NCBI GenBank assembly: GCA_949130485.1
Contig: OX422200.1
Coordinates: 6,480,620 to 6,544,619 of the forward strand
Source of the DNA: Agelas oroides
Lineage: Eukaryota > Porifera > Demospongiae > Agelasida > Agelasidae
DNA: 64,000 nt
Reading direction: 5' to 3'
The position numbers and the translations under genes were made by a program. This document shows, one piece after another, positions 2,088-55,118 of this stretch; positions within the stretch are counted from its first letter, which is position 1, and every line of letters begins with the position of its first letter. The notes beneath the pieces are model-generated. The model was not told where the DNA came from. It worked only from the letters and a program-made list of their open reading frames with translations, and ran no database searches.

Positions 2088-5000
2088 CTTCTTCTGCCAA
2101 GCTGTTGTGACCACCTGCACAGAGTTTGAAGGAATCTTTTTGAATACTTCTCTGGCAGCTGAATGCTTTCGCTGAGCTATAGGTGTGTGTGTGTATGTGC
2201 GTGTGTGTGTGTGTGTGTGTGGGAGGGAGGGGGGAAGGAGGAGGGAATTTTTGGTTTTTGAGTAGTTGATACTGTATAGCACAAAACTTTCGCAGGCCTT
2301 CCATTCTTGTGAATTTCGCGAATTTTGAACCATTTGAAAAATTATTTCAATGAAAACTTTTTTAAATGATAACACATTAACCACAGCTTTCGCACTCTGA
2401 CTGAGAGATGACCCTCCTACACTTATTTAAGAACGCTGATGGACAACATCTCAGGTCTAAGCTGCAAAATCCACAGGAATGCTCACAAAAGAGATAGCTA
2501 CATTTGCATGCAATATCTGCTGTGAAAAACGAAGTGGCTGCTGCATTGCAGCAATCCGGAGCAAAGGTACGAACATACCAACAAAAGTAGGCATAACTTT
2601 GCTGACAGCTACGAGCTCAAGCAGGCAACTGTGCAACAGTGCTGCCGTGCCCATAGTTCATTATGTAGTCACATGCGGCATGGTTTAGACAGCAAAAATT
2701 TAGATAGTAAGTTTTACAAGTATATTTCATCACCATGCACTAGTTGTGTAGTACTACTACTACATGGGTAGAGAATGGACAGTGACAGCACATTCTGATG
2801 TGTTGAATTTATAGCAGCTTTTCCCGCTATATGCTTTGTTACATCCCATGATGCAAACTAAAGGATTCATGTAATATATATACAAGACATTATGGGGATG
2901 AGCCTCTAGAGAACAATACTAAGTAGCATAACTATAGGCTATAGGAATGGCTTTACCATTGTGTTACCACACACAGCTAAGTCATGATATATCTGTAGCT
3001 AGAAGGAAACATCAGTCTACTGTTGGTGAGCAGCCAATGCACAAGTTCTTACATGAGATAGCTTAAAGAAGTTGTCATGAATGCAGAGAACAGCTTGCTA
3101 AATGCTTGTTGATGCGAAATAAATTAATGTAAATATTATAATGGCCTGAGGAAGCCGTGGACATCGGATCTGAATGTGTTGGTTAGTGCAATGGTACACC
3201 TTCCTAGCGTCTTGTTTGCTAACAAGCGTGAACAAATGGAGCAAATATCTTATTAGCATACTTCCAGTATAGTCTAGACCTAATTGTTTAATAAGGTTTC
3301 CTTAAAGAAAGCTATTAAAGTGTTACTATAGGATAGAGCCCTTACATGAGGACTTACACATACAGGAACTGAAGGAAGTGCTCAAGGATATAGGCAACTA
3401 CTGTTGCTAACTTTAGACCTATGCTGAATCACTACATATAAGGAAAACATATGGCTCCCCTCCACACACAAACCGACTGATATCCTGTATCCCTGTGTGC
3501 ACATACACATCCTCTATTACCATATAAGTTTCCATTGTAGAAATACTTGGCTTACTACAGACCACAAACCACAAATGTATACGTGTAAGTGACTAATCAA
3601 CTCTTTATAAAAGCGCAGAACACCAAGCCATCACAGGATTCACAGTTTAGTGCAGGTTTTTTGCTCGGGCAATCTATAGTATACGTACCTGCGACTTTAG
3701 CTTTCTGTGAAATGATTACTGCAAGTAGGCAAGAAGTAACTTCTGTAAGAACACCATGGACGGGACTATGTGAGTCTACCAGATCACTGTTGCCTGCAAA
3801 TTTTGCCTACCGACAGCAGCTTCTTCAGATTTCTGAAGAGTTAAGTGAACAAGATGTCAGGAAACTGTGTTACCTTTGCAAAGATGTCTTACCCAAGATG
3901 CAGTGTGAGCAGATAAAAGAAGGTTTTCAGTTGTTTGATTTGCTTGAAGATCAATGTCTGCTGGCTTCTGGTAACCTAACTTTTCTCTCAGAATGTCTCT
4001 CTATAATTGGGAAGATGAAACTGGCTGCTAGCCTGCCATACACACCTCAGAGTTTTGTCACACAGCAGCTTGTGTCAGTTTTTCACAGCAAAGCAAACCA
4101 TTATGCATCAACAATGGAGAATCTTGGTAAAGCTAACCTATTTCCCAGAAGCTATCTTACACAACTGCTTGCTGAGGTTTACTTTGTCCTTAAGATGGAT
4201 TTACCCACAAATTTAGGAATACCTTCTGAACTCAGCATGGCAGATCTGGATAGAATTGTTGCAACTACGTTAAGAGAAATATTTTTGTGCTCAGCTGCAC
4301 AGAGAAAACTTGCATGCACTGTGGTCTCTAATGACTTTCAGGCAAGGCAAGTGTACAGTGCTGAGTGCCACACCTACTATACTCACTTTGACAATGCAGT
4401 CACTGAGATCAAGTGGAACTCTGTTGTGTGTGCAAAGGTACGCAATTTGATCTCTGAACGAATAGAACCACAAGGGTCAGGTGCTCGCAAAGCATGTGAA
4501 TATATCCGTCAGGTATGTGTAGATATTCTCGGAAGCGATCAAATTCAGCAACATCTAGATGAAGCTAGTAAACACTTGTTTGCTCTGGAATCAATTTACT
4601 ACAGTGTGTGGCAGAGGTTGCCAATGTACCATTGGCTGGTTAACCTACTCTATTTAGCCAAATCCTCCATCCTGGATCTGAGTAAACATCGTGAACTACT
4701 GTTGATGCTTCTTGAAGAACACAGGGAAGGGATCATTGAGAACTACAGTGAGCTTTCACAAATCCTTGGCCAAGAAGTTCTAGACAATCTAGCTCCATTG
4801 CTGCGCTTTTCAAAGAATGACTTTATTCCGAAGTGCAATCCAAATATAGTATACACAATGACCTGGCACGTGTTTCTTCTTCAGCTTGTATACCTTGCAA
4901 TGGGGTATTCAATAGAGCCAAAGGAAGTAGGTGAAAGGTACACCAAGCTCTTCTTCTATGGTGACAGCCATAAGAAACTATTTGAGAACGGAATGTTACT

Positions 5001-8000
5001 TCTAGCAGCAGCAGTAGGGTACAACATGCATGTACTAATGGTCAGACTCAAACAAAAAGCACTTGAGTTAGCGAACAGTACTCCCTACAATGCACCAATA
5101 GTTGAACTGTTTCCAGATGGATCACATGGCCTGGGTATGAGGCTAGATGGATACCAACCCACCACTCTGTGAAGAGAGACCTAAGATACGTATACCCTCA
5201 CATCGGCCGTTGCCATGCATGTGTACTACAGGGATACATCCATAGTCAAACTGGTCCCCAGCAACAGATTGACAACTCTGAGATCTGTCTTGAGAGCATC
5301 TCACACTGTATACCAATGTCAGTTGTTGTATTGCCTTGTGTATTATTTTATTTATACTACATTACATCATTTTTTAAGTAATTCATTGGATGAACCAAGC
5401 AGTAGAGTAAGTCAGCAAACATCGGACGACATGTATAATCGGACACTCTAACGCGGAGAGAAAACTGAGTAAACACTCGGCGATACCGCAAGACTGTAGC
5501 GGAGGTACGCGGTACCTGGTATACCAAAAATGACGCCCGCACATTGTTTCCTGTTGACGCTAGAAGCGATAAAATGACCGTCCGAAAAACATCAATAATC
5601 GGATTAGTCTATCTATTTTCGGACATCAATGTCTGTGCCTTCTCGGAAGCTGCTTTTGGAGAGATTTTAGCATGGATACGATGCCCCAAGACCCCTCCAA
5701 TTCGCAATCAGTTTTCGTCGTGGTAGCTGCTTTGAGCACTCGGGAGCGCAGCTGAACTTGGACCAGTCCGATTCGATCAATAATCGGACGGTGAAATTTG
5801 TCGTTTCTTGCTGTGTTGTCTCCCAACAAGTTGAAGTCTCCACAATATTGGTATCAGTAGAATCTACAGGCCCTTGGCTACATGCTGGTACTTGTCCGGT
5901 GTTTGTGCGTTATGTGATATTGCACGATATCCTTCGAACTCACCTATTTATACTGCACATATATCAACTAGCGCATTTTACGGAAAGAAACATGGAATAC
6001 AGATATATCTCGAGAACTACATAACGCACAAACACCGGACAAGTACCAGCATGTAGCCAAGGGCCTGTAGATTCTACTGATACCAATATTGTGGAGACTT
6101 CAACTTGTTGGGAGACAACACAGCAAGAAACGACAAATTTCACCGTCCGATTATTGATCGAATCAGACTGGTCCATGTTCAGCCGCGCCCCCGAGTGCTC
6201 AAAGCAGCTACCGCGACGAAAACTGATTGTGAATTGGAGGGGTCTTGGGGCATCGTATCCATGCTAAAATCTCTCCAAAAGCAGCTTCCGAGAAGGAACA
6301 GACATTGATGTCCGAAAATAGATACACTAATCCGATTATTGATGTTTTTCGGACGGTCATTTTATCGCTTCTAGCGTCAACAGGAAACAATGTGCGGGCG
6401 TCATTTTTGGTACACCAGGTACCGTGTACCTCCGCTACAGTCTTGCGGTATCGCCGAGTGTTTACTCAGTTTTCTCTCCGCGTTGGAGTGTCCGATTATA
6501 CATGTCGTCCGATGATTGCTGACTTACTCTATATTTGCTATAAACTGAGCAAGTGATCAAATAGGCTCAAGTTTAAGCAATCTGCTCTCTTAATCGCAAA
6601 TAGCACTACTAAGCAAGTAAGTGTGCTTGGTGTGAACATCCAGCTTGACTTTTATCACTCAAGATCGATCATGCTACTGACCGAGCAAGCTCAGCATGAG
6701 CTCCAGCTCAATCTTCATCACTCAGTAGTTTCAGTTCTACACAAAAGTACATTGTTTAAGAATCCAGTTCCCCTACATGCAAAGAGACTGAATGCTGTAC
6801 CTCTCCTCCCCCCCCAAAAAAGGATCTTCTGTCTCTTCTATACAAGGGACTGAATAGTGCACCCCACACTCTTCTGTCCTTCTTCTATAGAAGGGAATAA
6901 AGGGAATGAATAGTGTACCCCATATTCCTCTGTTCCTTCTATCAGAGAAGAGAACAAACAGTGTACCCCACACTCTTCTGTCCCATTGTCACACTTTCTC
7001 AATGACTTTGACCAGGTTAAGGTCTGACTGTCAGGTCTGGAGCATGTTAACAATTGAGCCTGTGCCTCACGCTTTGTGCTTGTCGCACTCCCCCATCGAA
7101 CATGCCAGCTTGGTATCCACTTCAGTTGGATCCCTGGCAGCTCAGCCTTAAGTACTCGAACTCGGCCACTGAGTTGCCGAGTGACTCAGTAGCTCAGTTG
7201 GTTAGAGCATGGCAGGCCATTTGCCAGGTCGCGGGTTCGATTCCCTCCCTGAGTCACTGTCTTTTTTTCCCCTCTTTTATTTTCTCGTCTTTATTCCTCA
7301 CCTTTCTCTCTGACTTTGACTTAGGTTAAAGTCTGACTGTCAGGTCTGGAGCATGTTAATATCTGAGCCTCATGCGTCTCGCGCTTCGTGCTCGCCACAC
7401 CCTCCCCATCAAACATGCCAGCTTGGTATCCACTTCAGTTGGATCCCTGGCAGCTCAGCCTTATATATATATATAAGTACTCGAACTCAGCCACTGAGTT
7501 GCCGAGTGACATTTGCCGGGTCGCGGGTTCGAGTCCCTCCCTGAGTCACTGTCTTTTTTGCTCCTCTTTCTTTCTCATCTTTATTTCTTGCCTTTCTCTC
7601 TCAATGACTTTGATCAGGTTAAGGTCTGACTGTCAGGTCTGGAGCATGTTAACAATTGAGACTGCGCCTTGCACTTTGCGCTCGTCGCACCCCCCCCAAA
7701 AAGAAATAAAAAATTATTTTGTCTCTTCTATACAAGGGAATGAATAGTGTACCCCACACTCTTCTGTCCTTCTTCTATAGAAGGGAATGAATAGTGTACC
7801 CCATACTCTTCTGTCCCTTCTATCAGAGAAGAGAATGACTTTCTAAGAAGAATGACTTTCTAAGAACTTTGCATTCCTACACTTTCCAGAGGGTGAATGT
7901 ATTCCTTTCTTCGCTATTCTCGATGAATCTCCGACCAACGCGTTTGACTCCCAATTAGTGCTCACCTTGCCAGTCCTCTAAAGGGGTGCATGAGGACTCT

Positions 8001-18700: not shown

Positions 18701-21700
18701 ATTCCTGGCAACCGCCAGTTTCTCATTCTTGCTTCGAATATCGTTTCCAGCTGAAGCTAAGCACTTTTATCGTCAAATTTTAGATTAGGCCTTTTGTCTT
18801 GACCGTTTACAAGCAACTTTCTGATACAACAACCGAGTAATCCTCTTTCCTAACATTCCATCATTTGTACACTGTACAATGGAAATGATGGGGGGAGGGT
18901 GCGGCCAGCGCAAAGCGTGAGGCGCATGAAGGCTCAGATTTTAACATGCTCCAGACCTGACAATCAGACCTTAGCCTAAGTCAAAGTCAGAGAGAAAGAA
19001 AGGTGAGAAAATAAAGACGAGAAAATAAAGAGGGGAAAAAAAAGACAGTGACTCAGGGAGGGACTCGAACCCGCGACCTGGCAAATGGCCTGCCATGCTC
19101 TAACCAACTGAGCTACCAAGTCACTCGGCAACTCAGTGGCTGAGTTCGAGGACTTTAGGCTCTTTCCCAGCATTCCATCACTTGTACACTGTACAATAGA
19201 AATGATGGGGGGAGGGGGGAGGGGGAGGCTGGGTATGAGTCTATAGACACATAAGGTGCTTAACAATTCACTTGTGTGCAAATCTGTAGTGCAAGAAGAC
19301 TTAACAAATGTGTGTTTCTTACTTGGTTTGTTCCCCTGTTTCCTTTAGGTGAGTAAGTTGGGTCTCACAGCACTGGGAGAGGGAGGGAGGGAGGGAGGGA
19401 GGGAGGGAGGGAGGGAGGGAGGGAGGGAGGGAGGGAGGGAGGGAGGGAGGGAGGGAGGGAGGGAGGGAGGGAGGGAAGCTCAAAGGGAGGGATATGGTGA
19501 GAGGGGACAGAGAGAGAGTTAATGTGAAGAAAAGTTCTTTCCCTCACCTTCTCCAGAGCATGTGCCAGTTCCAACACGTCAGCAGGGTTGGGATGGGAGG
19601 AGAAACACTGGTGGAAGGCCTTCATGAGCTCACGACCAGCTGCAAGTTTCGAATCAACATGTTCCAAGGTATATAGTTAGACCATGACTAGTCTCATTCC
19701 CAGTTTCAAATGGGCTTGGGAATGAGTATGTGTTTTGTTCAGCCAATACTGCTACAGTTATGTTGAAATGGGAAAGCAGTAGAGCACTAGGTGGGGAGGG
19801 CACGGGCAGTAGAGCACTAGGTGGGGAGGGCACGGGCAATGGAGCGCTAGGTGGGGAGGGCACGGGCAGTAGAGCGCTAGGTGGGGAGGGCACGGGCAAT
19901 GGAGCGCTAGGTGGGGAGGGCACGGGCAGTAGAGCGCTAGGTGGGGAGGGCACGGGCAGTAGAGCGCTAGGTGGGGAGGGCACGGGCAGTAGAGCGCTAG
20001 GTGGGGAGGGCACGGGCAATGGAGCGCTAGGTGGGGAGGGCACGGGCAGTAGAGCGCTAGGTGGGGAGGGCACAGTCAATGGAGCGCTAGGTGGGGAGGG
20101 CACAGTCAATGGAGCGCTAGGTGGGGAGGGCACGGGCAGTGGAGCGCTAGGTGGGGAGGGCACGGGCAATGGAGCGCTAGGTGGGGAGGGTACGGGCAGT
20201 GGAGCGCTAGGTGGGGAGGGCACGGGCAATGGAGCGCTAGGTGGGGAGGGCACAGGCAGTGGAGCGCTAGGTGGGGAGGGCACGGGCAATGGAGCGCTAG
20301 GTGGGGAGGGCACGGGCAGTGGAGCACTAGGCGGGGAGGGCACGGGCAGTGGAGCACTAGGCGGGGAGGGCACGGGCAGTAGAGCGCTAGGTGGGGAGGG
20401 CACAGGCAGTGGAGCGCTATGTGGGGAGGGCACAGGCAGTGGAGCACTAGGTGGGGAGGGCGCAGGCAATGGAGCGCTAGGTGGGGAGGGCACAGGCAAT
20501 GGAGCACTAGGTGGGGAGGGCACAGGCAGTGGAGCGCTAGGCACAGGCAACGGAGCACTAGGTGGGGAGGGCACAGGCAATGGAGCGCTAGGTGGGGAGG
20601 GCACAGGCAATGGAGCACTAGGTGGGGAGGGCACAGGCAGTGGAGCGCTAGGCACAGGCAACGGAGCACTAGGTGGGGAGGGCAGGGCAACGGCTAGGTG
20701 GGGAGGGCACAGGCAATGGAGCACTAGGTGGAGAGGGCACAAGGAAAGTTGGATGGGAGACTAGGAACGAGACTGGATAATTATCTCATACAAAACAAGC
20801 AGTCGAATGATACTACTTGCGCACTGTTGCAAGTCAAGTTCTCAGGCTACTTGTGTATAGCATTGTGTAATTAGGGCCATGTTGTACAGAAGATGCAGCC
20901 AGCTGCCTATTGTACCCACAACAAACGGATTGTACTAAGAAAGAAAAGGGGCATGTACCAGTTCAAGACCAAGGGAGATCTACAGCTGCAGTAAGTGAAG
21001 ATGTTCACATGGGCAGCTGCTGATAGAACATAACAACGTCAACATGTTCCCTTTCTCCCTCCTTCCCCTCTCCTCACTTTTCTCGGCTGGGTCTTCCAAA
21101 GTGGTGATGTCTGCTGGGCCTAAGATGGTCTCCTCCAGGTAGGTCATGTGTCCCACCCTTGACATGTCAGGGGGAGAACCCTGTAATCAAGGAGGACAGT
21201 CAAGTGAGAGCTAAGATAAGAAACTACAGGAGTGAACTGTTAAAAGAAACGACTGTACATTTGCCATGCACATGTGTAGCCTCATTCCCAGACCTCCCCC
21301 CAGTGTCCATGTAGCTGCAAATATGTACACACTGAGCCTGAGAGCGAGTTTCTTTACCGATCAAGCAGAGTACCCTCAACAAAGGTCTGGGCAAACCTCC
21401 TAGTGGTGGAGTTGTTGACAAAGAAGTCTATTGTTCATTTGAATGTTAATTCTTCCCCCCACATCCACCTTGTGTCCACCTGACATCATTCATGTGATAA
21501 GTGTCCCCAAGCCTCCCCCATTTTGCATACTTTCGCTTATGTACATGCACATACTTATTGTGAATGCAAGTGCAAATCCAACTTACAGTAGAGACCTGGG
21601 AAATAGCTATGGTGGCAGTCCCGGGTAGAAATCAAACGTTATTCTGTTGCGTAATTCGACCGTGTTACCACGTTCGAAGCGCTGTAGCGCAGAACTTCCG

Positions 21701-25108: not shown

Positions 25109-28100
25109 ATGGCTGAGGGCGAGTGCTCTCGCTGTGTTTTTCGGCAGGAGGATGTCGACTTCAAGAATGAGCTGATTCAGCTCTTATCCTGGCACCTCAT
25201 GCGGCAGTGCTTCATGACAGGCGCCCTCTCCAGGGTCGGCTGGATCAGAACACTTCAAAGTGAGTGGCACTGCTGTGCTAGCATGTGTCTAGAACCGTGG
25301 ATGATACTCCCTTGGTTGTATCTTGGGGAGAGAGGGGATTGTCACATCATTACAAACCTCTGTCTCATTTTTCAACTCACTAAGCGTCAAGTCCGAGAGG
25401 CTGCTCACTCCTTTAATTGCATGAGTCATAATTGCAGAAATTCCATTTTTCAAGCAGTTTCAAGATGTCGTTTCCCTGCACATTGTTTACTAAATCTCGT
25501 GTGCTTGTGGTTGAAATTTTACTGAAGCGTTCATTGAAACCTGACATATGAAATTTCAAATGCTCCATTTCTTCATGTTTTATCCAAAGTCAAATGCTAC
25601 ATGTACCATACCCACTTTTCACTACAAGATTGAATCAAGTCACTTATGTCGCCTGATGAAGCGTTTGCGACTGTGATCAAAATGTTTGATTGGCAAAAAG
25701 TGTGCTTGATCACTTGATTGTTCCCTTCTGAGGCTCTTGATTGCATGATTTTCAAGGGTCAAAGGTCAAATTGCAGCTGGGCATTCTGTTGATTTTAGCA
25801 GCTTGGAGGCCACCTTGATCCCTTGATCGGCCCCCAAAAAAGGCTTTGATCGCTTGATTCAATTTAGATCCCAGTCACAAACGCTTCTACACGAGACATA
25901 TAAGTGACTACCCCTTGTTGAATGGAGATGGTAGCGTTGTACAATATCATTTAACAATTAAGTACACACATACACCACCAGTTTATATTTTGGGGGAGAT
26001 CTGTATCATTTGGACTTGCTAGTGTTAAACTTAAAATAGGCAGGCCTAAACAAAAATGACCTACTGCACTACAGGATGTATGACACTCCTTACCAAGTGA
26101 AGCCATAAGACATTGTTTGGTTGTCTGTTACCTGATCTCCTGCATGTTAAGTGCACACAAACCCAAGAAATAAGACATTGTTTGGTTGTCTGTTACCTGA
26201 TCTCCTGCGTGTAAGTGCACACAAGCCCAAGAAATCAACCAGACCTGTGATGGTTGGGTCTGGACACAAGATTAGTCTACTATCTTGCCGAATATAGCCT
26301 CGTGAAGCGTTCTGAAATCTGATTGGTACTGCTAACTCCAGAGCAGCGGAAGTCAACAGTTTGAACTCAGATAAGTTGCCAGGCCGTTTCTCCTATACGA
26401 ATGGCCTGGGTACGAGGCTAAGCCGAATATGGCACCTTCTGAGTACTCGAAGCATTATGCTAGCATAGCTCCTAGATCGTAGTCTACCACATGCAATAAC
26501 GATAGACCGTTTATTTTCAGATGTGTGTAGTGACATGCCCAAATCAGCTTTGAATACGAAGAGTCGGAAATTTCTGAAGTTCGTGTGGGTTCTGATGATG
26601 CTAAAAGACTGTGAGGGGGAGGGGGAGGGAGTACCGTCCTTGCCTCAGGGAGAAATACTGGCAGAATTAGTTAAAGTACTACAGTGTGTGCAGAGGTTTC
26701 CGGAACTTGAAGACAACCAAGATGAACTCACAGATCTCATCACAGAAACGAGATGTCAAGTATGTTTGTTTGTTTGTGTGTTTGTTTGCGTACCATAGGC
26801 TTGGCATTCTTTTACAAGGATTTAATAATTATTGTGAATTGCAATTTTATTGTGAACACGCAAAATTTGAGCACAAAATTATGCAATGAGGTGATTACGT
26901 AAATCTAAAAACAGATCTTGCTAGGGCAGTTTTGAGCATCTGCAACCAGTGAACAGGCTTCCACTCTTGGCATACACGCAGGGAGTAGATTTGCCTTGAT
27001 TGTGGAAAAATGTACAAAGGAGGGTCAGAAAGATCCAGTTGGTTTGGTGTTAAGGGATCAAGTACCTAATTGTCAGAAGGAATCTGATTTCCCCCTTGAT
27101 CTTTGTTACATGTACATCACAAGGGGTGTATCTGATTGCATCCCTTAAGCACAGTGAGAATGTGAAGACATACCAGAAGGAGTTAGAATGGATTGCTCCA
27201 AATACGGAGGCTGTAGTGTACAGGTATCAAAACAATTATAAAGGAGCATCAAAATATGTTAGGTGTTAGATTAGCCTTGGGATTGTCAAAGGCTGCAGTG
27301 TACAAAAGGACCCAGCTTCTTTGCCGTTTATCAAGAGATCAATTGTTAGAAGAAGTGTGTTCCTATACCATTTGGCATGTGATATCACTGTGTTGTGCAT
27401 TACTATAGGAGATACTGAGTTATTGCTACTCAGGCAACAGCACACGAGCCAAACAACTTTGGAAGAGGTACTTTGAAATGACCCTCAGGAGCGATAAGGA
27501 GTGGGTAAGCATGGGAATACATTATGGTACAAAGGACATTGATGTTGTCATATAGCCTCTAGAGCTTTAATGGGTTCAACTGACGAATAGGATTATACTA
27601 GTCAGTCAGGATCACCTTCCAGAAAAGTGAGAAATGGATCTTCTTGGAAAGATCTTTCACTTTCCTTGAGGTGGGGGAGGGATGGGCTAGCTTGATAGAT
27701 TACCAAATGAGCTAACTCAAACTGCGTTTTCTTTCCACATATAACCTCTTTCCCAGTCCTTCGCCCCTGTCTAGTTTTTGTTCAGTGGACGATAGATCTT
27801 ATGGCTATTATGCTAGCTGACAATATTTCGTTTTCAACATTTAAATCACATACTCTAGTAATCTTCATCAGGCAATGTTGCAAATAGAAATTTTGCCAGC
27901 TATGATAATACAAGATCTATCATTCATTGAATATTGTAGCACATGGTAACATGGAGGAGTGTGTGAAGGATGAAATTAATGTCTACTTGGTAGACAGTGC
28001 TGTGTGACCAACCATCTTCAGCTGCAATGCGCACATTTGGCCAAACAGTACCTAGTGTGTAAATAGCATCCCACCTTTGTACCTTACAAGCACCTCACTC

Positions 28101-31100
28101 TCACAATTCCCCTCCCCTTCTCACCCACACACAAACACACAGCCCATTGCAAATGGACTGAAGGTGGTAATCCTGAACATATCACTACTCTCTGCCAAAG
28201 GAAAGCAGACATCAGACACAGCTGGCATCATCAAGACCTTCCTCCAAAACCATTCCTTTGCCACTGTTCATTCTAGTCTTGGAGCGTTCCTGGTGGCCAA
28301 TGTTCATAAACTGGGAGAGCCTACACTGTACAAGGTGAGCTCAAACCTCAGTATTTTGTCACAAATAATCTTTTGTTCAAACCAATATTGAAATCCAGAA
28401 GAGGGAAGACATGACACAGTGAATTTTATATGTACCTGTACTTGTATAGTTTTGTGTGGCTAGGCAAGCTACATGTAACTAGGAGTTTGCTAGCCATGCT
28501 ACCGCTACAGTACTGTGTTACATGATCAAAACTGTGGAGTACTCTGCATGCTTTTGCAATGCTGTCTAATCTGTTGTGCTAGAACATTAATTGCTCATAT
28601 GATCACTGTTTTGCTGCAGTTGTGTCTAAACAGACTGCAACTGACACAAGGTGATGTAGAAAGTGGTGGTTTTTCACCAGAACAGAAGCAGCAGCAAGAC
28701 AAGGAGAAGGAACAAGAGTGCATGGGTGAGGGCAGGGTCATTGAGACCTTGTGAGAGGCAGCCTTGTTCCCAGGCCACATTATGCAGCTGGTTTTTCTCC
28801 ATGGCTGTGAAATAGAATCTAGGAGTGGCCTGGGAACAAGGACTAGCAAGAGGCACTTCAGATGATGCAACAACTAAATGTGTATTGATAAGCAACTTCA
28901 ATTGTTACTGTATATTTTCACGGAGATATTTCTGTTATGGTGGCTCTCCAACAACCGGGTCTCTCGTCTGAAGTTTCGCTGAATTAGTCACAGTATTATA
29001 ACAAAGTATATTGATATACTCCAAAAAACTTCATATATTACACAGCAACGATACAACTTGGGACGAATAGGCCCGATTTGGACCTTCGTCAGGCTAGACT
29101 TGGACTATCTATACAACACAGGAGATATTTGCCACACAATTTAAATTTTTGTGATTATCATAGTATATGCGTATGCTGTATACTGACGTGTGTAGCAAAG
29201 GAAAAACAGCCAGCTTTTCATGGTGTTTAATTCAAAAGTGCAAGCTAACTTGTGAAATATGCAAAAAAAAGTATCCACCACAAACATTTTAACGTATGCA
29301 GTATTTTTTTCCAACAGAGCAAAGTGCTATTGAAATGGACCTTGAAGGTCACTCCTCTGTTGATGTGGAAGGCATTGATGTTTCATCAGGACAGCAAGGG
29401 ACAGGAAAGGTGGACAATGAGCATGAGGAGGAGGAGAGTACGGTAGAAGAGAGTAAGGGAGACCCCATGGAGGATGAGGATGCTAGTGACCAGCTGGAGG
29501 GAGGAGGAGAAGGGGAGCCAGAAGAGCCTATCAGTGAAGAGGTTAAACGAGGGAGAGTGGAGGTTGACAGCTCTAAAAATGAGCATGAGGAGGGAGATGG
29601 GGCTGTAGAGAAGAGTGAGGGAGATGCCATGGACGAAGATGATGCTGCTACTCAGTCTGAAAGTGATGCTACCAATCAGCCAGAGGGTGAAGGAGAAAGG
29701 GAGGAGGAGGACCCCATCATTATCAGCAGTGAAGATAATACACCACAAAGAAAGTAAGTGGGAGTTCACTGTACATATAGACATATCATTGTGTGTGGTA
29801 TCAGCAGATTATACACCACAGTGTACCTCTGTTTGCAAGCTGCATGCCAAAAAGTATAGAAACAAGATAGGGATGATATAAAAGTGAAGGCAAATATACA
29901 AAGCCCCATCCCTACATCTTTCTGTGCTACAGTTTCTTAGTGTAGCAAAGATGTAGGGATAGATGGGGCTTTGTATATGTGCCTTCACTTTTATATCATC
30001 CCTATCTTGTTTCTGTACTTTTTGGCATGCCATCGCTATATCCTTTTCCCTTTTTAATGCTTTTTAACTCTTGTACATGATATGTGACGGATCCATGTAG
30101 AAATTGAAGATTGTTTTGTTGCCTATTTCTGTCGCATTGCAAGGCTCACAGCACTGTACTGAACTGTCATTTAGGGCAGGGCTCACACACATTACATAGA
30201 TGCATGAGTATCTGATGCATCTCTGCGACGCATAAAACCTAACTCTTAATAGAAGTTCAGCGATACAGTATTTCAAATGCAGTGATGCATTTGAAATACA
30301 CAATGGTAATAATCTTTGATTTCTACACAAGAACTACCACATATGGTCTGTGTAGCTGGACATTGCAAGTGAGATACACTTGTGCCTAGGCTATCCCACT
30401 TCCATTGACAGCTCCTTTAGTCTGTGATGAAGGAAGACAATGCTAGGATGAATGTATATGTGTGTGTGTGTGTGCATTGGCTACAGGCGTACCTTGCATC
30501 GTGGTAAAGTGCCACAGTTTTTTACGTTTGCTGATGAGGACGGAGATGGAGACATTATAGACTGGAGTGAGGACTCAGACCCAATATCTACACCACCTAG
30601 CCACCTCCCAAGTATGTGACAGTAAGACTGTGAAAATGGTGTTGTAGATAAATTTACAGTTGTGGGGAGAAGAGGGGAATGCAATCAAGATATGTAATTA
30701 CATAATAGCACTAGAAACTCTTATTGGGGCGAGCCTGAGTGAGCCCCACACTAGTGGGACTGCATTGCGGAAGTCGTATGTGCTTGCTTGTGGCCGTATA
30801 TTGTAAATTTTAAATGCACATTTAAATATTTCCCGAAAATTGAACGTCCTTGTGCACTTAGTCAGTAGCCTCTACTGCCAGAGTGCAGCGTTAGCAACCG
30901 TAGCGGAGACAGCTCAAGTTTAAGCGCACACGACACCTTACTTCTTGTTTGTCACAGCAACTATGGACCGACCATCAATGGCAGGCTGCTCGCAGACCAT
31001 ACACGCCAGGTTGAGATCGCTTCAGGTAAGGGTCATGCATAAACGGCACTCATAAATGCTTGCGATTCAGCTCATCATTTCAACGTGAAGCTTATAGTCT

Positions 31101-31978
31101 ATTCATGTGCATGTAGCCATAGTAGCTGCTTGCTCAGGCTTGTCCCCACAATGTTCTAGTATAAAGCTTACATATATGTTATATCTAGTATAAGTACTGT
31201 ATTTGTGTGGGTCTTGTAAAGAGTTCATCAGTATAGACAGGCAGCTTCTAGCTTTGTCTCCTTGCTGTCCTCACTCGTGCACAAATTATGTAACTGTGAC
31301 AGTGCTCATGTGATAAAAAGTGCTCCCTGTCTTCCAAGAGAGCCTGGCAGATACAGCTAAGTGAAGTGGTGGCTTGCATCACATTGTAGTTTCCCTTTTT
31401 TTCTTCATTGTGGAAAAAGAAAACAAAGGAGCCTATTTGTAATATGTGGCAGTCCCGTGTAGAAATCGAAGATTATTCCGTTGCGTATTTCGATCGCATC
31501 GCTGCGTTCAAAGCGCCATATCGTTGAACTTCTGTTAAGGGTGGGGCTCATACGTGCTTTGTAGACTCGTTAGCTATTCATGCATCTACGAAGCGCGTAT
31601 GAGCCCCATCCTTAACGGAAGTTCAGCGATACGGCACTTCAAACACAGCGATGCGATCAAAATACGCAACGGAATAATCTTCGATTTCTACATGGGACTG
31701 TCACATATGTTTTTACTTCTCTGTCAACAGCTTTTCGACCAACCATAAGAGTACGTAACCGTCAGTCTCTAATTGGGAAACCTTCTCTAACCAAGACCAC
31801 CCGGAAGACGCGTGTACCATTCACGGAGGTGGAGGTGGAGAATCTAGAGAAAGGGATAGAAAAGTTTGGTATTGGCAACTGGAAGAAGATACTCATTCAT
31901 TACAATTTTAACCCCCGAAGAACCAACAAAGATCTCAAGGATAAATGGAGAAATCTGTTGAAGTATTCAAAGAAGTAG
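25109..31978 (+). CDS. TRF1/TRF2-like telomere repeat-binding protein
   Basis: TRF proteins dimerise through an N-terminal TRFH domain and bind duplex TTAGGG telomeric DNA with a C-terminal Myb/telobox. Exons: 25109-25259, 26521-26759, 27124-27223, 27409-27504, 28143-28334, 28620-28725, 29318-29753, 30487-30611, 30958-31025, 31731-31978; about 585 residues. Exons 1-5 give a helical region of TRFH type (LIQLLSWHLMRQCF, GNSTRAKQLWKRYFE, FLQNHSFATVHSSL). Exon 7 is a strongly acidic linker. Exon 10 ends in a Myb repeat with GIEKFGIGNWKKILIHYNF and the telobox-like DLKDKWRNLLK, then stops. Phases match at most junctions but not at exons 2/3, 3/4 and 9/10, so those borders are provisional. Exon 9 reads equally well in another frame if exon 8 ends at a GTGACA donor at 30616. 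The Myb and exon order are secure; the TRFH call is by resemblance. Confidence 0.85.
25655..25910. mobile_element. Dispersed inverted-repeat element (GATCAAAATG type)
   Basis: It shares GCGTTTGCGACTGTGATCAA, TTGTTCCCTTCTGA and a terminal AAACGCTTCTACA with a copy at 43230-43490. The ends are imperfect inverted repeats. It is in TRF intron 1. Confidence 0.65.
26100..26231. repeat. Direct tandem duplication of about 63 bp
   Basis: ATAAGACATTGTTTGGTTG and the following 45 bp occur twice in succession in TRF intron 1, with few differences. Confidence 0.85.
28761..28847. mobile_element. MITE family 2, short copy
   Basis: Inverted ends AGCCTTGTTCCCAGGCCAC and GTGGCCTGGGAACAAGG in TRF intron 6, 36 bp after exon 6. 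Confidence 0.75.
29842..30030. mobile_element. Near-perfect hairpin element, 189 bp
   Basis: Both arms, about 85 bp each, match from TGCATGCCAAAAAGTA inward through GATAGGGATGATATAAAAG and ACAAAGCCCCATC. It is in TRF intron 7. Confidence 0.9.
30081..30344. mobile_element. MITE family 1, copy 4 (diverged)
   Basis: Ends ATATGTGACGGATCCATG and ACTACCACATAT; the inner arms are diverged from the other copies. In TRF intron 7. Confidence 0.75.
31443..31709. mobile_element. MITE family 1, copy 5, beside a TRF acceptor
   Basis: Ends TATGTGGCAGTCCCGTGTAG and its complement, with well-preserved inner arms. The right end lies only 21 bp upstream of TRF exon 10. Confidence 0.88.
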
Positions 31979-38166: not shown

Positions 38167-40210
38167 ATGGCGGTGAGTACCAACTACAGTGGGATTACTA
38201 CATACAGTAGCTAACTTAATTGTTATACCTCAGAGTTTGTTGCATGTGTTGACCATATCAACCATGCTGCCTTAATGGAATGTCACTCACATAGCTTTTT
38301 CTCTCTTGTCAAAGAGCTATTGCAATTGTTATGAAGTTGTATTGAAGCTGTGACAAAGCTACACTTATGCATAAGTAGCTAACTTTTTATATATATCCGT
38401 CAGAGTTTTTTGTCATGCATATAACTACTAGGGTCAACTCATCAGCAATGTCCTTGACTTGTTAAAGGACTAGCTGTTTGTCCAAGCTGCCAGTTTTGTG
38501 CACTGGACACACAGAAACCCATAAAGAGACATGTCTTTGTTCATTTTGTTCTAGGGATTTCGATTGAGGAAGATTATACTGGCTCTAGCTGTGGTACTTG
38601 GATTACTAGTGCTGGTAATGCACCAACATGCAAGTCAGGCTACAATGAACAGAACACCTGCTAGAAAGATAGTGGTATCTGACAGCAGTAATACTCCAGC
38701 TGCACGCAACAGCGTACCATCATCACTCAAACCATCAAAAACTCACACTAGAAAGATAGTGGTATCTGACAGCAGTAATACTCCAGCTGCACGCAACAGC
38801 GTATCATCATCACTCAAACCATCAAAAACTCACACTAGAAAGATAGTGGTATCTGACAGCAGTAATACTCCAGCTGCACGCAACAGCGTACCATCATCAC
38901 TCAAACCATCAAGGCAATTGGGCTATGTCTTGCCACTTAGCTATGGTGGATATCAAGGCAGAGGGTGTGATGGTGTACTGTCTGTCCAGTGCTGGCTAAA
39001 GTCATTTAACCTTCCCATGATGGTTGTGGAACCGTTGATACAGGATTCTCAGTTTGTTGCTACCGGTAGACATAAATCTGGTGTGTTAAGCTTCAGTGAC
39101 TTATTTGACATTGACTATTTTAACAAACTTACTACAAAGAGAAGTGGATATGCTCAACTTAGTAAGTGGGATGATTTTATACAAAAGTCACCAAAAGATG
39201 TGATCTATGTTATTGTTCGCGGCTCATCTAATGCTCATCAGCCAGGTATTCATATTGAATGGGAAATGGGACAAACTGGTGAATGCAACAAAGAGTATTC
39301 AGAGCTGAAATTCTTGGAACAACTGGGATATTGCGTTGTGAAGGTCGTTACATCATTTATAGTCAAACCAACTCCGTTTACAGCGAATGAAATGAATGAC
39401 ATTGTCTTTGATACATGGAAGCCGGATAAAGTAACCATCGTCTTCAGCGGATGGTCTCCAAAGTATACCGTACCTAACCCGAATAACCCCAAAATGTGTC
39501 AAGAAATTGTCTTTGGTGAAGGCCAATCACCATTCACACCAAGTCAGCAGCTCATGAAAGCAGTGGTAAAGTATGAGCAACTGTATCTTAAACCAAAGAC
39601 ATCAGTGGCAGTGATGATTCGCTCTGAACACTTTATACGCTCATTAGGAGAACAGGTCAAGAAGGGTCACGTCAAACAGTCCAATCTTAACCAGACTGTG
39701 GATGGACATATAAAACGCCTAGTTACTACAGCAAAGGAATTACGCAAGAAGTTTCCAGGTGGTAAGATTTTCGTTACTGCAGACGTTGGAGTGTATGGCA
39801 GCTTTACATGGGGCAGCGCAGTCAATGCACTTGGAAACAGAGATGCCTCATTCTATGCCCATGTGGACAAAGCATTCAAGGAAGCAGTGGTTTCATTTCA
39901 TAATGAGCAGCAAACGTTTGATAAATGGGAACAAAGTTTCAGCAAGGCTGCTGGAAGTGATGATCAGACCTACATTGCAGCTTTACAGCGTGTGATTGCT
40001 AGTAGGGCAAGCTGCCTGCTCTTGTTTGGAGGTGGAACCTTCGAGCTACTCGCATTTAATGACTATTTACAGAGTCATCCAAAACAGTCTGAGCAATGTT
40101 GGAAGTGGATTGATGTGAGATCTGACTTTAAGGAGAATTTTGTGCATCAGTTTCGAGGAAGGGGTGATTTGGACATCTCCGCAACTGCAGACTTTTATAG
40201 AAAAACCTAG
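38167..40210 (+). CDS. Type II membrane protein, possible glycosyltransferase, copy 1
   Basis: Exon 1 is only ATG GCG (38167-38172, GTGAGT donor); exon 2 is 38555-40210. The join is in phase and gives 553 residues beginning MAGFRLRKIILALAV. A membrane anchor follows a short basic N-terminus. Next comes a Ser/Thr/Pro/Ala stem with three 29-residue repeats (38666-38911, KIVVSDSSNTPAARNS), then a lumenal domain of about 440 residues. That layout is typical of Golgi glycosyltransferases. AVMIRSEHF resembles the HIRRGD-type strand of GT-B fucosyltransferases, and LLFGGGTFELLAF may be the late Gly-rich loop. No family is certain; the enzyme call is an inference. Copy 2 lies at 53550-55118. Confidence 0.7.
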
Positions 40211-53549: not shown

Positions 53550-55118
53550 GGATTTCGATTGAGGAAGATTATACTGGCTCTAGCTGTGGCACTTGGATTA
53601 CTAGTGCTGGTAATGCACCAACATGCAAGTCAGGCTACAATGAACAGAACACCTGCTAGAAAGATAGTGGTATCTGACAGCAGTAATACTCCAGCTGCAC
53701 GCAACAGCGTACCATCATCACTCAAACCATCAAAAACTCACACTAGAAAGATAGTGGTATCTGACAGCAGTAATACTCCAGCTGCACGCAACAGCGTACC
53801 ATCATCACTCAAACCATCAAGGCAATTGGGCTATGTCTTGCCACTTGGCTATGGTGGATATCAAGGCAGAGGGTGTGATGGTGTACTGTCTGTCCAGTGC
53901 TGGCTAAAGTCATTTAACCTTCCCATGATGGTTGTGGAACCGTTGATACAGGATTCTCAGTTTGTTGCTACTGGGAGACATAAATCTGGTGTGTTAAGCT
54001 TCAGTGACTTGTTTGACATTGACCATTTTAACAAACTTACTACAAAGAGAAGTGGATATGCTCAACTTAGTAAGTGGGATGATTTTATACAAAAGTCACC
54101 AAAAGATGTGATCTATGTTATTGTTCGCGGCTCATCTAATGCTCATCAGCCAGGTATTCATATTGAATGGGAAACGGGACAAACTGGTGAATGCAACAAA
54201 GAGTATTCAGAGCTGAAATTCTTGGAACAACTGGGATATTGCGTTGTGAAGGTCGTTACATCATTTATAGTCAAACCAACTCCGTTTACAGCGAATGAAA
54301 TGAATGACATTGTCTTTGATACATGGAAGCCGGATAAAGTAACCATCGTCTTCAGCGGATGGTCTCCAAAGTATACCGTACCAAACCCAAATAACCCCAA
54401 AATGTGTCAAGAAATTGTCTTTGGTGAAGGCCACTCACCATTCACACCAAGTCAGCAGCTCATGAAAGCAGTGGTAAAGTATGAGCAACTGTATCTAAAA
54501 CCAAAGACATCAGTGGCAGTGATGATTCGCTCTGAACACTTTATACGCTCATTAGGAGAACAGGTCAAGAAGGGTCACGTCAAACAGTCCAATCTTAACC
54601 AGACTGTGGATGGACATATAAAACGCCTAGTTACTACAGCAAAGGAATTACGCAAGAAGTTTCCAGGTGGTAAGATTTTCGTTACTGCAGACGTTGGAGC
54701 GTATGGCAGCTTTACATGGGGCAGTGCAGTCAATGCACTTGGAAACAGAGACGCCTCATTCTATGCCCATGTGGACAAAGCATTCAAGGAAGCAGTGGTT
54801 TCATTTCATAATGAGCAGCAAACGTTTGATAAATGGGAACAAAGTTTCAGCAAGGCTGCTGGAAGTGATGATCAGACCTACATTGCAGCTTTACAGCGTG
54901 TGATTGCTAGTAGGGCAAGCTGCCTGCTCTTGTTTGGAGGTGGAACCTTCGAGCTACTCGCATTTAATGACTATTTACAGAGTCATCCAAAACAGTCTGA
55001 GCAATGTTGGAAGTGGATTGATGTGAGATCTGACTTTAAGGAGAATTTTGTGCATCAGTTTCGAGGAAGGGGTGATTTGGACATCTCCTCAACTGCAGAC
55101 TTTTATAAAAAAACCTAG
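53550..55118 (+). CDS. Type II membrane protein, possible glycosyltransferase, copy 2
   Basis: Nearly identical to the protein of 38555-40210, full length to the stop, with two instead of three 29-residue stem repeats (53661-53819) and a handful of substitutions. The acceptor (TTGTTGTAG before 53550) is kept, but the two-codon exon that supplies the start in copy 1 is not found upstream: homology to copy 1 begins at 53300, inside intron 1. An in-frame TAG lies directly before the exon, and the first internal ATG would remove most of the membrane anchor. It therefore needs another 5' exon or is a very young pseudogene. Confidence 0.65.
   Translation, partial: GFRLRKIILALAVALGLLVLVMHQHASQATMNRTPARKIVVSDSSNTPAARNSVPSSLKPSKTHTRKIVVSDSSNTPAARNSVPSSLKPSRQLGYVLPLGYGGYQGRGCDGVLSVQCWLKSFNLPMMVVEPLIQDSQFVATGRHKSGVLSFSDLFDIDHFNKLTTKRSGYAQLSKWDDFIQKSPKDVIYVIVRGSSNAHQPGIHIEWETGQTGECNKEYSELKFLEQLGYCVVKVVTSFIVKPTPFTANEMNDIVFDTWKPDKVTIVFSGWSPKYTVPNPNNPKMCQEIVFGEGHSPFTPSQQLMKAVVKYEQLYLKPKTSVAVMIRSEHFIRSLGEQVKKGHVKQSNLNQTVDGHIKRLVTTAKELRKKFPGGKIFVTADVGAYGSFTWGSAVNALGNRDASFYAHVDKAFKEAVVSFHNEQQTFDKWEQSFSKAAGSDDQTYIAALQRVIASRASCLLLFGGGTFELLAFNDYLQSHPKQSEQCWKWIDVRSDFKENFVHQFRGRGDLDISSTADFYKKT

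Follow-up and report, generated by a model that had tools for sequence, protein, structure and literature searches.

A probable sponge orthologue of the telomere-binding TRF proteins

Results

A predicted TRF-type gene

TRF-type proteins bind TTAGGG repeats at chromosome ends. In the stretch of 64,000 nucleotides analysed here (the window), a predicted eight-exon gene on the forward strand, spanning 25109-31978 and encoding 530 amino acids, is very probably the TRF orthologue of a sponge. Our confidence in this assignment derives mainly from the C-terminal Myb domain, the architecture of the protein and the telomere repeat of the host, rather than from the TRFH domain. The order of the domains, namely a helical N-terminal domain (helix assigned by a crude rule), a hinge and a Myb domain, is that of TRF. 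Judged from its sequence, the protein is most likely a member of the TRF family, of which the TRFH fold would be the defining proof. The exons of the predicted gene are listed in Table 1.

Table 1. Exons of the predicted TRF-type gene, with positions in the window
Feature	Position	Strand	Content
Exon 1	25109..25259	+	Start codon; aa 1-50, opening part of the TRFH-like helix-rich region
Exon 2	26521..26759	+	aa 51-130; site of the most distinct local similarity to the TRFH domain of human TRF2, LVKVLQCVQRFPELE
Exon 3	27409..27504	+	aa 131-162, rich in predicted helix (crude propensity rule)
Exon 4	28143..28334	+	aa 163-226, final large piece of the TRFH-like region
Exon 5	28620..28725	+	aa 227-261; passage from the helix-rich region into the linker
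Exon 6	29318..29753	+	aa 262-406, acidic linker
Exon 7	30487..30611	+	aa 407-448, basic-to-acidic switch; tentative position of a candidate iDDR
Exon 8	31731..31978	+	aa 449-530 with the stop codon; Myb of telobox type (aa 476-525)

The C-terminal Myb domain is closest to human TRF1

The first-pass annotation had picked out the strings GNWKKILIHYNF and DLKDKWRNLLK in the C-terminal Myb repeat; both lie in frame, and DLKDKWRNLLK ends four residues before the stop. In a whole-protein Pfam scan, Myb_DNA-binding matched aa 476-525 with an E-value of 5.7e-10, as one C-terminal Myb with no tandem copy. The domain was then compared with PDB sequences, where 47 matches were listed at E-values up to 1. 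Human TRF1 is the top match and the best solved relative (E 2.4e-11), and ranks 1-21 of the 47 are all occupied by telomere proteins; TRF1 is followed there by telomere-binding proteins of plants, by Terfa of zebrafish and by human TRF2 (4.9e-6 to 1.1e-4). The highest-ranking non-telomeric Myb is c-Myb (E 4.3e-4); the telomeric entries found beneath it are 8f0a, a 27-residue piece, and 2m9h. Entry 1x58, which we take to be the TERB1 Myb, aligned with the sponge domain at E 0.088. The ranking is therefore headed by TRF1 and not by non-telomeric SANT proteins, whose lead the first-pass annotation had named as fatal to its reading. Over the aligned part, the Myb domain is identical to human TRF1 at 24/44 positions and to human TRF2 at 20/53.

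The telobox has been described as VDLKDKWRT, with the consensus VxxKDxxR (PMC6175992). The corresponding sponge stretch, KDLKDKWRN, keeps seven of the nine letters of VDLKDKWRT and three of the four fixed positions of the consensus: K, D and R are retained, and the leading V is replaced by K. This V-to-K change at the start of the telobox could affect base reading. Relatives of the Myb exon were also sought in prokaryote genome contigs and in viral contigs, where none of the pattern-matching stretches (110 and 26, respectively) encodes one.

The N-terminal region is predicted to be helix-rich and may be a TRFH domain

By a crude propensity rule, 67% of the N-terminal 244 residues is helix-rich, compared with 80% for the TRFH domain of human TRF2 and 83% for that of TRF1, and the helix-rich N-terminus is about the size of a TRFH domain. 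Alignment with human TRF2 TRFH gave z-scores of 4.8 (semi-global) and 5.6 (local), which were equalled by none of 1000 shuffles and by 1 and 2 of 194 E. coli ORF windows. These decoy windows were drawn from 64 raw ATG-to-stop frames of at least 200 aa in two E. coli loci. A clear local pair is formed by sponge LVKVLQCVQRFPELE and LLRVMQCLSRIEEGE of human TRF2 TRFH. Alignment with human TRF1 TRFH was near chance, with z-scores of 0.7 and 1.5 that were equalled by 224 and 86 of 1000 shuffles and by 25 and 6 of the 194 E. coli windows.

Profile methods were applied to the same region. The protein has no match to Pfam TRF, and the sole match within its N-terminal region is to ELYS (E 0.081); phmmer against PDB sequences returned nothing for the N-terminus but a ribosomal protein (E 0.56). 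With hhalign, the score of the sponge region was reached by 10/194 E. coli windows and 18/300 shuffles in local mode, and by 13/194 windows and 34/300 shuffles in global mode. In an hmmsearch with a profile built from TRF1 and TRF2, the sponge N-terminus ranks amid the shuffles. A search of the genome itself with PF08558 gave no match, yet none of the 14 controls was detected either. The comparison with the TRFH family proposed in the first-pass annotation thus gave a divided answer: profiles find no match, but the pairwise alignment with TRF2 stands above shuffles. Of the TRFH-like helical N-terminus claimed in that annotation, the helix-rich character holds, and the sequence resemblance to TRFH is suggestive but unproven.

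A second Myb gene is likely to encode TERB1

A Myb search of the assembly (259 Mb, 141 contigs), in which three candidates were scored, returned two matches at E<=0.1, one being the window gene and the other a stretch elsewhere in the genome, C6:7585513-7585656 (E 6.7e-7, 52% identity). The C6 Myb is identical to the window Myb at 26/51 positions. It closes a gene-like stretch in which the Myb is preceded by a long frame for a linker and by a frame with ARM-like sequence, an arrangement like that of TERB1. This gene is likely TERB1, a label that we give tentatively because the Arm match (E 0.14) lies under the cut-off; TERB1 has been reported in Porifera (PMC7227075). The window gene is the sole TRF found in the genome and is apparently single-copy.

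Since the protein goes unmatched by Pfam TRF and its TRFH profile evidence is weak, and since the genome does hold a second Myb of this kind in the TERB1-like gene, we considered whether the window gene might itself encode a TERB1-type or other telobox-Myb protein, whose Myb tethers a non-TRFH helical domain to telomeres. A C-terminal Myb of telobox type is indeed common to the window protein and TERB1, but TERB1 has ARM repeats (PMC7227075), and no ARM family, N-terminal or otherwise, appeared when the window protein was compared with Pfam at E-values as high as 10. Moreover, the likely TERB1 of this genome, with its long linker and weak ARM-like sequence, is the separate C6 gene, and the window Myb is nearer to human TRF1 than is the C6 Myb, for which 17/44 positions are identical. 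We regard a TERB1-type identity of the window gene as unlikely.

Other shelterin partners were sought in the same genome. The RAP1 Myb profile (PF08914) gave one match, which at 18.6 bits and E 0.72 is under the cut-off and contains a stop, and TPP1 (PF10341) gave none; controls were silent in both searches.

The host carries TTAGGG telomeres and a demosponge-like mitochondrial genome

Arrays of CCCTAA, 38 to 169 units long, were found at 12 of 20 contig starts (first 3 kb, one end each, of 141 contigs), which points to TTAGGG as the telomere repeat of the host. The remaining eight starts are without such an array, one of them being mostly N. Taken together with the Myb match, the domain order and the presence of only one other such Myb in the genome, these telomeres give good support to the telobox-Myb, TRF-type reading of the gene put forward in the first-pass annotation.

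Contig C141 (22,436 bases, 22.4 kb) is a mitochondrial genome, which we attribute to the host because it is part of the same assembly. It encodes atp9 (Pfam ATP-synt_C, E 4.7e-13), and its cox1 is in two pieces that flank a LAGLIDADG endonuclease frame (L056:3853-6730). Among 22 demosponge mitochondrial DNAs, all except that of Amphimedon queenslandica contain atp9 (PMC2444032), and several demosponges carry cox1 introns (PMC10695373). Since both traits have been reported in demosponges, the host is very likely a sponge and probably a demosponge, as judged from these genes, and the 'early-branching animal' of the first-pass annotation is supported.

The linker is acidic and a charge switch precedes the Myb domain

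Residues 229-430 contain 64 D/E and 17 K/R, in agreement with the long acidic linker between the domains noted in the first-pass annotation. Such a strongly acidic linker, together with the K that stands in place of the leading telobox V, might suggest a transcription factor of the general Myb/SANT type that has an activation-like linker and plays no role at telomeres. The Myb ranking argues against this, as TRF1 leads c-Myb by about seven orders of magnitude in E-value, although the lead of human TRF2 is just one to two orders, and Pfam shows a lone C-terminal Myb instead of a tandem. A transcription factor of this kind is, in our judgement, very improbable.

The sharpest basic-to-acidic charge drop of the whole protein, measured as 15 residues before versus 20 after, falls at aa 419-421, in RKRTLHRGKVPQFFTFADEDGDGDIIDWSEDSD, between the linker and the Myb domain. 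In the published description of the iDDR, acidic residues come after a cluster of basic ones, and RAD50 is the predicted binding partner for both vertebrate TRF2 and invertebrate TRF (PMC10497418). The sponge protein shows the same order of charges at this position, ahead of the Myb.

Alignment with the human iDDR was not significant, the scores for three motif lengths being equalled in 671, 184 and 242 of 2000 shuffles of the hinge. The top-scoring placement falls in exon 6, away from the charge switch in exon 7. Identification of an iDDR by alignment was rejected on both counts. The conserved core of the iDDR has been placed at residues 460-472 of human TRF2, with W465, L471 and F472 (PMC11260466). 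The sponge protein contains DWSEDSD, in which acidic residues come after a W, but 8% of shuffled hinges also contain W.[DE][DE], and none of the alignments is significant. A spacing pattern consisting of KVP, 15-18 residues, W, any residue and two acidic residues occurs in none of 20000 shuffled hinges; since it was chosen after the sequence had been seen, it is given no weight. Early-animal TRF1 orthologues have been examined for a tankyrase-binding motif (PMC9688111). In the sponge protein, neither the tankyrase-binding motif R..[PGAC].G nor the motif [FY].L.P is present.

Gene model and intron elements

The gene was predicted from the genomic sequence. All seven introns have GT-AG borders, the phases fit, and a single open frame runs from the ATG at 25109 to the stop at 31976-31978, so that the start and stop coincide with the limits assigned in the first-pass annotation. 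Upstream of this ATG the frame stays open to 24932 with no further ATG, and the model is accordingly without a long N-terminal extension; an extra exon upstream of 25109 could nevertheless exist. A candidate ninth exon at 30958-31025, with GT-AG borders, was left out because, with it included, the Myb exon is no longer read in frame. That this piece has to be skipped, and that the exons were predicted from genomic sequence alone, would suit a model that fuses an upstream gene for a helical protein with a downstream gene for a Myb protein, but seven of seven phase-keeping joins in one open frame and a domain order that agrees with TRF make such a fusion the least credible of the readings considered.

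Two introns contain inverted repeats. The element at 31442-31708 in intron 7 has arms of 124 nt that are 90% complementary and recurs near full length, at 90-94% identity, in at least 39 other places in the genome (40 of 3121 candidates scored); it looks like a MITE. Another inverted repeat, at 29842-30030 in intron 6, has arms of 90 nt that are 89% complementary.

Discussion

The arrangement of the predicted protein suggests how a sponge TRF might work. The helix-rich N-terminal domain, as a putative TRFH, would pair two copies of the protein, and the two C-terminal telobox Mybs of the dimer would read duplex TTAGGG at chromosome ends. The long acidic linker could serve as a flexible hub for the recruitment of partners, and the basic-to-acidic stretch ahead of the Myb may act in the manner of an iDDR, restraining RAD50/MRN.

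In common with vertebrate TRF1 and TRF2 (TERF1/TERF2), the sponge protein has a lone C-terminal Myb of telobox type, a helix-rich N-terminus and a long hinge. It differs from them in that profiles detect no TRFH, its hinge is strongly acidic and, in the model, no distinct N-terminal domain of acidic or basic character precedes the helix-rich region, where an upstream exon is possible. Furthermore, the alignment with human TRF2 has a gap of six residues on the sponge side facing NLDCSF of TRF2, a loop that presumably holds the docking residue F120.

The invertebrate TRF with an iDDR, as described in PMC10497418, is similarly a TRF that predates the vertebrate duplication and has a basic-then-acidic stretch ahead of the Myb, whereas the letters of the sponge stretch match the human iDDR motif non-significantly. 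According to the same source, the TRF subunit already had its iDDR when metazoans emerged, before TRF1 and TRF2 arose by duplication. The first-pass annotation had held that an orthologue in this host would bear on when animal shelterin arose. It does so, although to a smaller extent than claimed, because TRF in early animals has already been published (PMC10497418). Among the matches listed in one open-licence literature collection, a sponge TRF is mentioned neither in a title nor in the opening of an abstract.

The presence in one sponge of a TRF and of a separate TERB1-like gene accords with published work, in which the TRF arm of shelterin dates back to the origin of animals and the split into TRF1 and TRF2 came later. 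The gene provides a concrete early-branching orthologue with which to ask whether the peptide dock of TRFH or the iDDR-like hinge came first. One speculative answer, which we think doubtful, is that the TRFH of this protein has drifted past profile detection and lacks a peptide-docking loop, and that the acidic hinge switch already restrains MRN. If this were true, the hinge, and not TRFH docking, would be the older device of end protection.

Other reading frames in the window

Long frames on both strands at 19657-20761 are produced by a short tandem repeat, as seen by eye; the sequence is of low complexity and the frames are probably not genes. Two long open frames, at 38555-40207 and 53550-55115, have near-identical starts (GFRLRKIILALAV.LGLLVLVMHQHASQATMNRT) and apparently represent a local duplication; neither has a Pfam match at E 0.001. 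In a further long open frame of 527 aa, at 3589-5169, Pfam identifies a death effector domain (DED, E 5.5e-21).
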